Made by a program: the position numbers and the translations under genes
Part shown: in pieces, positions 1 through 16,381 of the stretch
How positions within the stretch are numbered: the stretch's first letter is position 1
How the letters are laid out: every line of letters starts with the position of its first letter
Notes under the pieces: model-generated
Told to the model about the DNA's origin: nothing
What the model saw: only the letters and a program-made list of their open reading frames with translations
Database searches by the model: none
Virus record (IMG/VR): IMGVR_UViG_3300035199_000287
Coordinates: 1-24,432 of that record
DNA: 24,432 nt
Strand: one strand, 5' to 3'
Source: a virus

Positions 1-1130
1 GCTGTTGCTAGAAATCCATCCTCGCGCATGATCTCTAATATATCGCCAATGACATGGCGTTCGTTCCAGTCCATATCGATCACTACTGAATCGTGAATGC
101 TGAACGCCAACTTTGTATTCATCCCTTCCAGTAGTTTATGGATGTGAAGCATCTTTCGCAAAACGTAGTCGGCAGTTGTGCTTTGGATCAAATAAGAGAT
201 GGCGTGGTCCTTGTCGGCCTTGATGGTCCGTCCAAAAGGATTTGTTATTTTCTCGCCGTCCCAATGTGTCTTTAAAATGTAATCACGGCCGTAAGTCTTT
301 TCAAGTCTTTTATCTTGTTTTCCCAAATCATAAAGCCATGAGAATATCAACTTCTTCGCCATGTCGCGGTGGACTGAGGCACCAAAAATATTCTTTATAT
401 TCCATTCATGGATATCGAGGTCGGGTTGTTTTTTATTTAAGATGTAAAAAAGCGATCTCAAGTCCGCAGCGTTATAATCAAACTCAACAAACCAGTCGTT
501 GTTGGGTTTTAAGAAATGCCTCATATCCTTCTCGTAACGCAAGATAGGGAATGATTTCTTGGATGTCGTCAGGCGCCCTGTAACGGCGCCATAGAGGCTA
601 TATTCCACGTTACGGTCATAGCTCTCCATCTTCTTGGAAAACGCCCTGACCCGCTTGTTAAAAGACTGTCTCTTTATCTCGTCGTCATCCAGATTAATCT
701 GATAAGTTCTCATCTGTTCGAACATCGCGGTGGCTTCCACCATGATATCGTGATTTTCTGGTTTTTCGTAGTTCTCGAATACCCATTCGCAGATTTGATT
801 CTTAACTTTACAGTAGTCGATCAAAAATTGTTGTGGAACCAGATCAAAAAAACAGTTTTCATCCATATCGACTTTGGCCAAGAGAAAAGAACGATAAAAA
901 GCGCTAAGTTTCTTATCAACCATTTCCCATTCGTCTTCAAGATGACTCGGGCACACCTCAGCAGGTGATTTTCCGCCGCACCAAATGCTGGCGTATTCAA
1001 TACCATCCGGCAAATATGGCGACCAAGACCAAGTATGGGTCAGGTCGCTGGGTAGCTCGCCAAATATCAACTTATCGTCGATATAGCCGCCAACACATTC
1101 ATTTTTGTTATCAAGCGTTTGGAATAACAA
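1..1130 (-). CDS. Family A DNA polymerase, polymerase domain only (3' end outside window)
   Basis: Replicative DNA polymerase of the Pol I/T7 type. Open for about 376 codons from a TAG at 1143-1145 to the window edge. Motifs in order: TGRLTTS (about residue 184), motif A DYNAADLR (about 218), O-helix HRDMAKKLIFSWLYD (Arg about 255), and motif C IHDSVVID (His about 346, Asp 347). The stretch before TGRL is only about 180 residues and shows no exonuclease motifs I recognise, so the 3'-5' exonuclease is absent or encoded elsewhere. Oddities against the family: motif A has Asp where Pol I has the steric-gate Glu, the O-helix reads YD instead of YG, and motif C is HDS instead of HDE. There is no in-frame ATG near the stop; TTG at 1130 after a purine-rich GAGAGAAGAG stretch is the most upstream plausible start, and this choice is uncertain. 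A sigma70-like promoter lies just upstream. Family assignment is secure. Confidence 0.9.
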   Translation of the reverse strand, partial: MLFQTLDNKNECVGGYIDDKLIFGELPSDLTHTWSWSPYLPDGIEYASIWCGGKSPAEVCPSHLEDEWEMVDKKLSAFYRSFLLAKVDMDENCFFDLVPQQFLIDYCKVKNQICEWVFENYEKPENHDIMVEATAMFEQMRTYQINLDDDEIKRQSFNKRVRAFSKKMESYDRNVEYSLYGAVTGRLTTSKKSFPILRYEKDMRHFLKPNNDWFVEFDYNAADLRSLFYILNKKQPDLDIHEWNIKNIFGASVHRDMAKKLIFSWLYDLGKQDKRLEKTYGRDYILKTHWDGEKITNPFGRTIKADKDHAISYLIQSTTADYVLRKMLHIHKLLEGMNTKLAFSIHDSVVIDMDWNERHVIGDILEIMREDGFLAT

Positions 1131-1292: not shown

Positions 1293-1682
1293 CTACAGTA
1301 ACTCGAAGTGCGGTAAATCCATGAAGCTCTGGTCGTTCACTTTCGTATCTCCGTCCCAGTCTCCACCCCAACGAATCTTAATATCCATCTGGTCTGCGAG
1401 GCCTTTAACGTATCCGGCGAAATAATAAAACCTTTCTTTATCATTCCAGTTAATAGGGTATGGGGCAACGTCAGCAGCCATGGATGGAAGACTATTGTGT
1501 TTTGAGTTGGGGTATTCAACTTTAGATTTTCCTGTCCTATAATATTCGTCCTGAAGCTTCTTGCTTCGATGGCCTTGTAAGATAGTACAGTCAAAGTTCT
1601 TTACAACTTCTTGAAATAATTTTTGTAAATCCGGATGACAACCTTCTAGCGTAGCATTGGATTTTTTGGAAAACTTTGGCAT
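1293..1682 (-). CDS. Endolysin, M15-type L-alanyl-D-glutamate/D-Ala peptidase
   Basis: A 129-aa peptidoglycan peptidase of the VanY/M15 superfamily (compare the T5 endolysin class), expected to cut peptide cross-links for host lysis. The zinc-site pattern is visible: SKHNSLPSMAAD with His62 and Asp71, then RWGGDWDG around residue 105-111 and DLPHFEL with His125 near the C-terminus. Full length for a single-domain enzyme. There is no signal peptide or membrane segment, so it would need a holin, and none is visible in this window. The start has a clear ribosome binding site (AAGGAGAG). It is the last gene of the baseplate run, with a 13-nt gap after the preceding gene, so it probably shares that late transcript. 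Confidence 0.88.
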   Translation of the reverse strand: MPKFSKKSNATLEGCHPDLQKLFQEVVKNFDCTILQGHRSKKLQDEYYRTGKSKVEYPNSKHNSLPSMAADVAPYPINWNDKERFYYFAGYVKGLADQMDIKIRWGGDWDGDTKVNDQSFMDLPHFELL

Positions 1683-1695
1683 TCTTCTCTCCTTT

Positions 1696-3021
1696 TCAAT
1701 AAATTTTAAATATTTTACTTGCCGTATCTTTTTTTATGGCGTCCGAAACGCTTTCATTGATGCCTTGATCCCTAAACGATAGTTTCGTTAAGGTATGGTT
1801 TATTGAGCCTTCAAAATGATTGTTGGAAATAAACTTATTATTGATATAATTTACGATCAATAGTAAGTCTGTTGTGCCGGCGAGTGAGCGAACGGTCTTT
1901 TTCATTTGATTAATTTCTGGTATTCCTAAATTCAAAGTTGAATATCGATTTTTCAAATCAACATATTTTTCGAGCCAATAGGCCGTTGTTAATTCGTTTA
2001 AACCTTCGATATTCGTCGGAGAGCGTATGATAAATTCCGGCATCTCATATTTACAGCCAACATCGACGAAGGTTTTCGTTCGAGGATTTCGAGACACAAA
2101 AAGATTGTAGGCTTGTATATAATCTTCCAGCATAACAATAAAGTCAGAAAAATCAACCAAATCATAGTTATCGAGAATTGTAAAAGTATTAGAAGTTATA
2201 CTTGCTCCCGCTTTCGCAATATATTCTATCATCTGCGGTGAACTTATATCGGCCACCAGTCGCCATGGAATGTTTTTATCGATGTTAAAGCCATAAGCAT
2301 ATGCGGCTGCTTTATAGAAAGCGAAATTATCGGCTTTATAGAAATTATCGACTTTATATTTGTCTTCGCTGTAAGAAGCCTTCGAGATTTCAATGGCCAG
2401 CCCGGTATTTAATTGTGAATTTAGCGCCGATCTAATATAATCGGACAAGAAATAAGATGTATTTCTTTGCGAAAGTAAATAATCTTCATAGAATTTAGAA
2501 AAATCATATATATTTCTTATTTTCTTCTTGTCTCCGAGGCCGATATAATCAAGAACAAAGGTATTTCTTGCACGAATGCGAAAATCTGAATATTCAGCCA
2601 AAGGATCGACGTAGCCTTTTTGGGCGCGAAGTTGAACCAGATCGTTTGAGGGATTGCGGGCGACTTTATTATCTAATATCTGCCCCGAACGCAGAGCATC
2701 TTCAAATCTGACTGCTAGCGCATCGAAAGCATCAGCAACAAAATTCAAAGCGTAAACGCCAGTGGAGCCTTTAAGTTTTGTATTTTTGATCTTTTCCGAC
2801 TTGGGTATGATCGGAAAGTCACTTATGGATATCTTACCTCGCATGCTCTTTTCCATAAGTTCGAAATCTTTGACTTGTAAAGTCTCAATTGTCGGTTTAA
2901 ATAAGTTAACAGGAGCATAACCCGGAGTGCAATTAAGCACATATGCTCTAAAACTCAATCTTCTATAAAAAAGAGTAGCAGCCGGTAAGTCGTTTGTTCC
3001 GTCAAAATTTGGAATGGCCAT
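1696..3021 (-). CDS. Phage structural protein of unknown role, baseplate module
   Basis: A 441-aa protein I cannot place in a named family. It is mostly mixed alpha/beta with many aromatic residues, has no membrane segment, and contains an IPWRLVADISSPQM stretch at about 251-264 that I have seen only as a vague theme in uncharacterised structural proteins of T4-like marine phages. Around residues 225-239 a short internal duplication (DNFYKA, then DNFAFYKA) is encoded by a near-perfect direct repeat. The start overlaps the stop of the large hub-like gene by one base (TAATG), with GGGAGGT as ribosome binding site, so the two proteins are probably made in coupled amounts. Location between the hub-like protein and the endolysin suggests a baseplate or tail-fibre attachment component; that is inference. 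Confidence 0.7.
   Translation of the reverse strand: MAIPNFDGTNDLPAATLFYRRLSFRAYVLNCTPGYAPVNLFKPTIETLQVKDFELMEKSMRGKISISDFPIIPKSEKIKNTKLKGSTGVYALNFVADAFDALAVRFEDALRSGQILDNKVARNPSNDLVQLRAQKGYVDPLAEYSDFRIRARNTFVLDYIGLGDKKKIRNIYDFSKFYEDYLLSQRNTSYFLSDYIRSALNSQLNTGLAIEISKASYSEDKYKVDNFYKADNFAFYKAAAYAYGFNIDKNIPWRLVADISSPQMIEYIAKAGASITSNTFTILDNYDLVDFSDFIVMLEDYIQAYNLFVSRNPRTKTFVDVGCKYEMPEFIIRSPTNIEGLNELTTAYWLEKYVDLKNRYSTLNLGIPEINQMKKTVRSLAGTTDLLLIVNYINNKFISNNHFEGSINHTLTKLSFRDQGINESVSDAIKKDTASKIFKIY
2309..2349. repeat. Short imperfect tandem duplication inside the 441-aa gene
   Basis: A 23-nt unit (2309-2331) is followed one base later by a 17-nt copy (2333-2349) that differs only by lack of six internal bases. 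On the protein level it doubles a DNF-(AF)-YKA element in frame. It looks like a recent local slippage duplication and has no obvious regulatory meaning. Confidence 0.6.
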
Positions 3022-13009: not shown

Positions 13010-16000
13010 TTAATCTTCAAAAGATGCACCCGATCTTGTGATGATAAAGTCGAGAGCAATGAACTCAATAGACCGTGTAGGCTTGATAAAGATTTTAGCA
13101 TACATTATGTTTCTATCGATCATATCTGGTGTTGTCGTTGTTTCGTCCAAGACGACACGGAAATCATCGACACCAAATCTAACCTTAACATTACCAAGGA
13201 AAGAATCCGATCTAGACTTAAAGTCATTCCAAGTTGTCTGAATGTTCTGCTCGAACAAGACCGTGGAAGCGATTCGCGAAATACCTTTCTTAAGATAGAT
13301 GAGAAGGCGACGAACGTTGATACGATCCAAAGCAGATTGTGTAGCCTGGAGTGTCTTCTGTCCGAAAATTACGATGCCTTCTGCCGGGAATGAAGCAACC
13401 GGGTTAATATTTCTGGCGTAGAGTCTATCGCGGTCAGAGGCAAAGAGCTTTTCTTCCACATTCAAGACCGCAATTCCAGCAGAGCCATTTGATAAGCCGC
13501 CGCGGTTAAAGCCGGCGGGAGCAAACCAAACATCGGCAACCCTTTCGGTATTCGCGAGGACTCCAAGAGCAACAACGGACGGGGGCGCTTTAAGGATTGT
13601 GTTATTCACGTCGTCCCTGATTGTAACCCATGGGTAATATGCGGCACCATAAGAATTGTTAAGGTTTCTGGAGTCTACATTGCTAAGCACTGTTTGTAGA
13701 TCACCTTTACGAGAAGTCTTATTAGAGTAATAATATTCATGAGGAGGTGTATAGCCACCCTTAAGATCGATTATGCCTAAACAATCGCCACGAGCTTCAC
13801 AAACATCAATCAGTTTCTTGGTCAACGGCTCATACCATAAGCCGGGGGCCGACATAACATTGAATTCATAGCCTTCTGTATCGGTAAGAATATTCAACGC
13901 AGTTTGATATGTGTTGTATACATAATTTGTTGTATCAGCAGCACCGTCCGTGATCAAATTATTGCGCAGCGGATCGCGCTCTAATATACTAAAGCCATCG
14001 AAACCGCCAAGCATTGGGGCACTGAATCTTTGAAACCCTGCGTCGAGAATATTCTTATAGCTAGTTCCGCCGCTAGCGCCGGAGGCAGTCCAAGAATTAC
14101 CGGCAGCGCGAGAGCCAGATTCATGATAGGCGTTAGTAATATTTCTACGTGGACTATTAGAGCTATATTGCGAAGTCAGATTCAGGCGTACATCATCTAA
14201 AGTAAATGCATCTTGAAATTGTATACCGCCGGCGACGGAGGTAAGCCCAAAAGCATCTCCCCAATCACCATCGGAAATGACGCTAGCGCCCATCGTTCTG
14301 GTATAATCAACATAACCTTCGTTATACACCGAATTTGTTGTTGCTTTTCCGACATCGACACCAAAGAATGCTTTATCATTTGCTGCACCCTGAGCGGAAG
14401 AAGTAACTTTCGTGGGGATCTCAGGAAACTGAACAGACATCGTTAGCGCCGTCGCGCCACCGGTGGCTCCGTCGGTTGCTGAACCAGTAGTCATGGCTGC
14501 TGTTCCCGCGCTGCCGTTGACGCCGACATAGCCGAGAGTATAAAGAGAAAGATCAGCGTCGGTCGCGACTGAGGCTGTCGCCGTTATTGTGACTGTGCTC
14601 GATCCTTCGCCTGGGGTCGTATACGTTCCGTCATAAGCCGGTAAAGAGCTAAAAAGAGTCGATATTTGAGCAGCAATCTGATCGTCATGAGGGCTATCAA
14701 GTATGCCGATTGATGCGGATCCATAGTTGCTAAACGAACCGGAGGAGTCCGCGAGAGCTATCGACGAAGTTAAAATAATTCCCATGCCCTTTGCGGCAGT
14801 AGAACCACTAAGCCCACTAAACCTAATCGTATCATTATTATTTCCCGGGTGATAATTAGTGAAAGTCCAAGTTAATGTCGCATATGTGCCTGGATCGCCG
14901 GCGAGAAGCACCGAAGTTGAAGAGTTATAACCGCCGGCAACAATATAAGTATTTGGATTATTAGTTTGAGTACCACTAAGGAAAACGTTGCGATATTTTG
15001 GAATTCCATAGTATCCGAAGGGCAAGAGCGATGGTGTGTCGCCGGCGGCCACTTCGGAACTCACAACAACTCGAACATATCGCGATAGGTTAGGCATATC
15101 GCCATAGGTCCTAACGACACCGTATGTATCATCATATTCTTGATATCGATCACCGATCTTATTAACAATGTAATTTGTGGAAAGTGGGTTCAGATTAACT
15201 CCAGAAAAACGCTCCAAAACATTAAGCTGGAGGTCGCTGTCTTTTGCATCTCTGACAAGCACATCAAAAGAACCAAAATTTACATTATCGTTCGGCGAGT
15301 AGTTGATATTATCAATTGAAATTTTTATATTTTTGTTCGCGTAGTCGCCTTGGCCGTCAAGAGTTATAAACTTAAACAGTGGTCGCGCAATGCTGTTGTC
15401 TGTCGGATCGAAAGAACCAGTAGTTGTGGTCGCATCTTGCGAAACAAACCATGGAGTTTGAGCATTTCTGAATGAACCGCGGCGGTCCGAGGGGCCTTCA
15501 CCACTGGTCGATCCAGAAAGCAGTGGGACAATGGCGACACCATAGTTGCTATAATTAGCAAAGATTTTATCTTGGACCGATCTTTCGAAAGACTCTCCAA
15601 GCCAATAATCTTTCTGTTGATTTGTATCTTCAACAGAAGTCGCTCCCGGGAAACCAAATCTCGCAACTTGAGGATTTGTATTGAACACATTACGAATAAA
15701 GTTCGGATTTGATTCCTCCATTGAGGTTCTATATACCGTCGAGCCGGCCGAATTCGAAAGAATAAGATTAAATTCTTTAGAGGAATTTAAATCAACCAAC
15801 TTATTCATGCCTTCAGTAGCAGAGGAATAGCTGTGAATACTTCCAGTAGGATAAATCGCCGCCCCACTGGCGTAGAAAATCGCCGCCAATGTTCCAGTAA
15901 TGGTCGTAGTCGATGAAGAGCCGAAGTAGAAAAGACCGTATGCTCCACAAATTTCTGCGGCGCCCTTTGATGAATCCGTAGTAAGTGCCGAGAGAGCAGG

Positions 16001-16381
16001 AAGTTCCCAGCCGGCTTGAGCGAGAGTTGTCTTCGAAGCCGCGGCGCCGTTGTTATCCTTGCCGAGAAGCCTCAAATATGTAACAGGGGCAACACCAGCC
16101 GCCAAATACGCCTGAGCCGCATATGCGGCATATACCGGAGCGTTTTGTGCCCCATAACGCCAGACATCACCGGGCTGCTGGTTGCCGGCAACTGGATTAC
16201 CAAAGGTATTAACAAACTCGGAAAAAGATTCGACTTTGGTGGGGGCAAACGCTGGGCCTCGCTGGGCGCGCCCGATGATAACCGGCCCAACTGCGTCTGG
16301 GAGTGCTGGGATCTGTGATTGATCTATTTCATTAAGAAATATCCCAGGTGAGATAAATTTGAACTTGCTTTCGTCAGCCAT
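13010..16381 (-). CDS. gp18: Tail sheath protein, gp18 family, oversized
   Basis: A 1123-aa contractile sheath subunit; T4 gp18 has 659 residues. The N-terminus (FKFISPGIFLNEIDQS, then PVIIGRAQRGPAFAPTKV and the 'F...FG' block to about residue 60) and the C-terminal core (NVRRLLIYLKKGISRIA, then FEQNIQTTWNDF, ending IEFIALDFIITRSG) are typical of sheath proteins: the core that stays attached to the tube. The middle, roughly residues 130-800, holds several large Gly/Ser/Thr/Ala-rich insertions, expected to form extra domains on the outside of the sheath. Strong binding site (TAGGAGTT). A copy of the ACTANTTA element lies 26 nt upstream. Confidence 0.93.
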   Translation of the reverse strand: MADESKFKFISPGIFLNEIDQSQIPALPDAVGPVIIGRAQRGPAFAPTKVESFSEFVNTFGNPVAGNQQPGDVWRYGAQNAPVYAAYAAQAYLAAGVAPVTYLRLLGKDNNGAAASKTTLAQAGWELPALSALTTDSSKGAAEICGAYGLFYFGSSSTTTITGTLAAIFYASGAAIYPTGSIHSYSSATEGMNKLVDLNSSKEFNLILSNSAGSTVYRTSMEESNPNFIRNVFNTNPQVARFGFPGATSVEDTNQQKDYWLGESFERSVQDKIFANYSNYGVAIVPLLSGSTSGEGPSDRRGSFRNAQTPWFVSQDATTTTGSFDPTDNSIARPLFKFITLDGQGDYANKNIKISIDNINYSPNDNVNFGSFDVLVRDAKDSDLQLNVLERFSGVNLNPLSTNYIVNKIGDRYQEYDDTYGVVRTYGDMPNLSRYVRVVVSSEVAAGDTPSLLPFGYYGIPKYRNVFLSGTQTNNPNTYIVAGGYNSSTSVLLAGDPGTYATLTWTFTNYHPGNNNDTIRFSGLSGSTAAKGMGIILTSSIALADSSGSFSNYGSASIGILDSPHDDQIAAQISTLFSSLPAYDGTYTTPGEGSSTVTITATASVATDADLSLYTLGYVGVNGSAGTAAMTTGSATDGATGGATALTMSVQFPEIPTKVTSSAQGAANDKAFFGVDVGKATTNSVYNEGYVDYTRTMGASVISDGDWGDAFGLTSVAGGIQFQDAFTLDDVRLNLTSQYSSNSPRRNITNAYHESGSRAAGNSWTASGASGGTSYKNILDAGFQRFSAPMLGGFDGFSILERDPLRNNLITDGAADTTNYVYNTYQTALNILTDTEGYEFNVMSAPGLWYEPLTKKLIDVCEARGDCLGIIDLKGGYTPPHEYYYSNKTSRKGDLQTVLSNVDSRNLNNSYGAAYYPWVTIRDDVNNTILKAPPSVVALGVLANTERVADVWFAPAGFNRGGLSNGSAGIAVLNVEEKLFASDRDRLYARNINPVASFPAEGIVIFGQKTLQATQSALDRINVRRLLIYLKKGISRIASTVLFEQNIQTTWNDFKSRSDSFLGNVKVRFGVDDFRVVLDETTTTPDMIDRNIMYAKIFIKPTRSIEFIALDFIITRSGASFED

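Follow-up and report, generated by a model that had tools for sequence, protein, structure and literature searches.

Divergent family A DNA polymerases (PolA) with an inactivated exonuclease and a truncated thumb were described by Yutin et al. 2024 (Virol J 21:200, PMC11348598), who named the protein of Flavobacterium phage vB_FspM_immuto divPolA1. The genomes encoding divPolA1 belonged to phages of 155-190 kb, which also encoded a regular DNA polymerase of family A, B or C. The neighbors of the divPolA1 gene were genes for SSB, RecA, a 5' exonuclease, DnaB and Nrd, and because this conserved replication module surrounds divPolA1, a role in replication was suggested (PMC11348598). Actinobacteria likewise have an accessory polymerase of family A (PolA2/APEX, PMC12926913), whose exonuclease domain is dead and which occurs beside a family C replicase; this cellular enzyme has a beta-clamp-binding motif in a vestigial exonuclease loop. 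The same survey noted that FEN nucleases occur as separate proteins in cases in which Pol I is absent.

The stretch of DNA analyzed here (the window) is a linear virus record of 24,432 bases whose major genes all share the minus strand. Genes for a T4-like head, tail and baseplate came first, then an endolysin gene and last a polymerase gene that ran off the contig at position 1. The tail sheath protein (13010-16381, minus strand) was very long at 1123 aa, with the Pfam sheath domains C-terminal and a large extra part before them. The initial annotation had placed a polymerase gene at 1-1130, and the gene proved real and correctly located, on the minus strand. Its frame began with TTG at 1130, preceded within a few codons by a stop, and stayed open to position 3 (376 codons); about 15 C-terminal residues lie past the contig end and are missing from the window. 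The protein matched PF00476 (DNA_pol_A) with an E-value of 2.6e-12 and 46.8 bits, above the curated cut-off of 34.3, and carried motifs A, B (the O-helix) and C. It is therefore a family A DNA polymerase.

Close relatives were found in 16 IMG/VR contigs, at 36-48% identity, with a common start and a length of 381-397 aa where complete. A profile scan of IMG/VR matched at least 600 stretches, of which at least 496 encoded relatives, and the best 80 were used. Among 86 distinct aligned family members, nearly all were full length (usually 386-397 aa) and had start and architecture in common. Since these sequences agree in both, the window protein was neither truncated nor frameshifted from a longer gene, an outcome that the initial annotation had named as a possible refutation. 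The fused 5' nuclease and 3'-5' exonuclease domains of a canonical Pol I (PolA1) were lacking in the window protein, and neither PF01612 nor 5_3_exonuc matched it in Pfam. In many relatives stop codons lay close upstream of the polymerase start, which argues against a fused N-terminal nuclease.

Residues were numbered from the TTG codon as 1 and mapped onto Klenow by hhalign and profile alignment. Motif A (D218-Y-N-A-A-D223, positions 462..479, minus strand) placed D218 at Klenow D705 and D223 at the steric-gate site, Klenow E710. The O-helix (327..368, minus strand) contributed R255, K259, F263 and Y267, equivalent to R754, K758, F762 and Y766, so that a Phe occupied the ddNTP-discrimination site, and D268 stood at Klenow G767. 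Motif C (87..95, minus strand), H346-D347-S348, corresponded to H881-D882-E883, and D218 and D347 were the catalytic aspartates. The motif readings made earlier from the letters (Asp in DYNAADLR, YD at the end of the O-helix, HDS, and Phe) all mapped onto Klenow as stated. Seven residues were invariant across the 86 distinct members: D218, R255, K259, Y267, Q316, H346 and D347; a Gln at the Klenow Q849 site was thus constant in the family. The remaining sites varied, with E76/D10 at site 223, F81/L5 at site 263, N57/D24/G5 at site 268 and HDS70/HDN15 in motif C. The residues called unusual were thus present, and Asn or Asp at 268 and HDS or HDN in motif C held family-wide. The Asp gate did not stand as a trait of the polymerase type: Glu was the usual residue, and all Asp-223 sequences placed on the tree grouped with the window in a single clade (support 100), which is most simply explained by a single E-to-D change and is no hallmark of the enzyme.

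The N-terminal domain (residues 1-125; 756..1130, minus strand) lay where Pol I has its 3'-5' exonuclease. No proofreading domain had been visible to the initial annotation, and none was detected here: Pfam exonuclease profiles gave no match to the window protein up to E 10, and when the N-terminus was compared with the exonuclease domains of Pol I in hhalign, the probability was 0.2%. A hidden exonuclease domain was thereby ruled out at the profile level. The description of a gene that starts shortly before the polymerase domain nevertheless omitted a conserved domain of 110-125 aa, which AlphaFold folded confidently on its own (pLDDT 96.3 for residues 1-125). This domain had no recognizable DEDD motif. 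Searched alone against the PDB with Foldseek, it gave no significant match, and its best structural match on a second look, the exonuclease region of Pol epsilon, was weak (VIA Z 4.1). Residues 1-125 may be a reduced, eroded remnant at the exonuclease position; because a Z of 4.1 is too weak to stand alone, this reading is a structural one, and it agrees with what has been published for divPolA1 (PMC11348598). In an alignment of 44 sequences D7, K9, C12, T33, W34, C60, P61 and C93 were invariant within the domain. The three Cys (C12, C60 and C93) and W34 may have a metal or structural role.

The full AlphaFold model of the window polymerase (pLDDT 90.9) aligned with the Bst Pol I large fragment (4ez6) over 343 residues at 4.1 A and 13% identity (VIA Z 24.1), and the alignment began at Bst residue 310, inside the vestigial exonuclease domain. 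In palm and fingers the catalytic and O-helix residues were those of bacterial Pol I (Klenow, Bst). However, the window family had about 390 residues versus 580-605 in Klenow and Bst Pol I, about 35 fewer residues between the O-helix Tyr and the Gln equivalent to Q849, no exonuclease, and Asp or Asn in place of the Gly after the O-helix Tyr. The 5' nuclease was encoded by a separate gene in the relatives, unlike in bacterial Pol I. Compared with PolA2/APEX, the N-terminal domain was smaller and unlike in sequence. The short polymerase is predicted to be enzymatically active.

We compared the window protein with known phages. In a tblastn search against 50,697 phage records nothing was found at 1e-5, and at E 10 there were only weak matches, the annotated ones being regular PolA; the homologues in immuto and in Microcystis phage Mel-JY01 were therefore found with the profile alone. 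The profile search recovered a 441-aa protein of immuto (annotated as family A and lying in the same module), a 408-aa protein of Mel-JY01 (annotated as hypothetical) and a homologue in a 484-kb uncultured phage (LR756508). Immuto also encoded a 778-aa PolA with PF01612 (exo+), and Mel-JY01 a PolB plus clamp loader. In the Mel-JY01 record (PP395634.1, 46000-95000) the label 'DNA polymerase I (TIGR00593)' stands on a gene for a 5' nuclease, while the short PolA itself, at 50397-51623 of the record, is labeled hypothetical and is missed by Pfam. In LR756508 the frame with the DnaE match had 575 aa, well below the usual length, and may represent a split gene or a distinct short form.

In the tree, 21 short PolA rows formed one branch apart from regular PolA (support 100/99.9), with some long branches, and for the diverged members both E-values and trees carry a long-branch risk. 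The window protein fell in one clade with the immuto protein and is thus divPolA1, immuto being the one published record against which membership was checked (MK892584, MK892766, MK892784, LR796625 and LR796697 were not among the sequences compared). Within divPolA1 the window family differed from immuto in length (about 390 versus 441 aa). It had a canonical TGR, Glu or Asp in motif A and HDS or HDN in motif C, whereas in the group of immuto, Mel-JY01 and LR756508 the gate residue was His and motif C read YDA. The window family is a new, large and uncultivated branch of the already published divPolA1 group, with an Asp-gate subclade. It extends divPolA1 from 14 known genomes to a large environmental family, with at least 496 encoding stretches in IMG/VR. 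A scan of genome contigs gave a single match, a phage fragment beside runs of N in a WOR-3 MAG 'chromosome' (CP070664.1), which is probably a chimeric scaffold.

The gene context was conserved among the relatives, whose IMG/VR contigs are fragments. Their polymerase gene followed tail and baseplate genes and was directly preceded by a structural gene of the baseplate region; the window's copy, of 441 aa, lies at 1696..3021 (minus strand) and had a tblastn match in 78/96 related loci. In the window an M15-type endolysin gene (1293..1682, minus strand; PHROG 465 endolysin, E 9.8e-41) stood between the two. It had no tblastn match in the 96 related loci and lay outside the conserved context, and it therefore looks like a recent cassette insertion. 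Beyond the polymerase the relatives encoded a 270-285 aa protein, a gp32-like SSB and a RecA/UvsX-like recombinase, and further downstream a dCMP deaminase-like gene in many cases, then a FEN-like 5' nuclease and a DnaB-like helicase, and finally a ribonucleotide reductase-like gene (the deaminase-like and reductase-like genes were named by eye from sequence). The replication genes typical of divPolA1 (SSB, RecA, 5' exonuclease, DnaB, Nrd) were thus present downstream in the relatives and in immuto. The conserved 270-285 aa protein (IIGLGxxGCxIAxxFxKYPQY; for example L149:16768-17601(-), L003:9170-9991 and L028:3976-4782, among others) came right after the polymerase in most relatives, in some of them with one or more small inserted genes in between; it had no PDB match and at best a weak Rossmann-like match in Pfam.

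A regular DNA polymerase was found alongside the short one in the relatives. DnaE (family C, PF07733) was present in 12/12 contigs that extended at least 17 kb past the polymerase on its downstream side, always on the same strand and 13.6-19.1 kb away, and in 0/7 contigs with less than 12 kb on that side. Two members of the window's own clade (G017 and G032) were among the DnaE-carrying contigs, and none of the 12 encoded a second family A or any family B polymerase. Every relative with enough sequence therefore has DnaE, whereas published divPolA1 pairs with family A, B or C. The DnaE proteins had PHP, palm, fingers and HhH domains. All nine metal ligands of the PHP domain (5 His, 3 Asp/Glu and 1 Cys, in the order HxH-D-H-E-H-C-DxH) were invariant in 12/12, and the same composition is reported for DnaE1 of M. 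tuberculosis, whose PHP exonuclease is active (PMC5636811). Judged from these ligands, the PHP exonuclease of the relatives' DnaE is apparently intact. The replication module and DnaE were seen in the relatives, the window contig ending inside the polymerase gene, and the phage from which the window derives presumably encodes both DnaE and the 5' nuclease.

We consider it probable that the window protein is a minimal, proofreading-less polymerase of the divPolA1 type that is not the main replicase. Its palm and fingers would be Klenow-like, its thumb would be reduced, and a catalytically dead remnant would take the place of the 3'-5' exonuclease. The genome would be copied by the separate DnaE, which would proofread through its own PHP domain, while the short polymerase would work like a dissected Pol I, in gap filling, in Okazaki-fragment maturation and at recombination gaps. 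Its likely partner would be the FEN-like 5' nuclease, whose stand-alone gene follows a few genes later, near those for the gp32-like SSB, the RecA/UvsX-like recombinase and the DnaB-like helicase. The accessory role is suggested because short polymerases coexist with three unrelated replicases (families A, B and C), and since the rest of the job of Pol I falls to the neighboring, separately encoded 5' nuclease, gap filling and Okazaki-fragment maturation are favored, although co-location with the nuclease would not in itself prove joint action. The consistent pairing of this branch with a DnaE whose PHP proofreading site looks intact supports reading divPolA1 and the neighboring 5' nuclease as Pol I taken apart.

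A different division of labor had been proposed by the initial annotation, in which polymerase and 3'-5' exonuclease of one replicase are split into two genes as in Rhodothermus phage RM378. RM378 is a distant T4-like phage with a related capsid protein (33% over 96%), and it does encode the two activities separately, but its polymerase is DNA_pol_B (PF00136/PF03104, E 2.2e-33) and its exonuclease DNA_pol_B_exo1 (E 2.7e-14). Both are of family B, the short PolA profile had no match in RM378, and RM378 is therefore not the model for a family A protein. A separate DEDD exonuclease was sought in the relatives: PF01612 was absent from the 16 closest, and an RNase_T/DnaQ-like gene (PF00929), which would suit the split, was present in just two long relatives (G012 and G024) and was not found in those of 172 kb and 204 kb. 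The implied separation of a replicase from its proofreader also conflicts with the separate DnaE and its apparently intact PHP exonuclease. The split model is mostly refuted, and we give it hardly any weight. It is improbable, to a lesser degree, that the short polymerase is the main replicase and DnaE an accessory enzyme. The short polymerase does lie within the replication module, with DnaE 14-19 kb off, but the protein is very short, without proofreading and truncated in the thumb, full-length DnaE with intact PHP ligands occurred in every relative with enough sequence, and homologues coexist with family A, B and C replicases, as expected if the replicase is the part that is swapped.

The main rival to gap filling is translesion synthesis, the short polymerase being a low-fidelity translesion or repair enzyme like actinobacterial PolA2/APEX. 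The absence of a proofreading domain suits this, as does the precedent of PolA2/APEX, an accessory PolA with a dead exonuclease that is thought to be mutagenic (PMC12926913). The window polymerase nevertheless retains the normal O-helix set R/K/F/Y, and its gene is near-fixed beside those for SSB, RecA, 5' nuclease and helicase, a setting suited to routine replication or recombination; we regard the translesion role as unlikely, while ranking it above the other alternatives. Changed sugar selectivity, with the enzyme of the window's clade incorporating or extending ribonucleotides, would draw on the Asp gate. Asp at site 223 occurred in every member of one supported clade, and because His occupies this site in the diverged group of immuto, Mel-JY01 and LR756508, the gate is labile in divPolA1. 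Against this, E-to-D is a conservative change that keeps the carboxylate, and F263 and Y267 of the gate pocket are normal in the window, so ribonucleotide use is most improbable. We think it scarcely more credible that the Asp-gate clade differs in function from the rest of divPolA1 through an altered sugar selectivity, and that in a phage replicated by DnaE it might serve, for example, to extend RNA primers or to patch junctions of RNA and DNA. Asp, Glu and His together form a natural series at the steric gate of a small exonuclease-free family A scaffold, which makes the effect of this residue directly testable.
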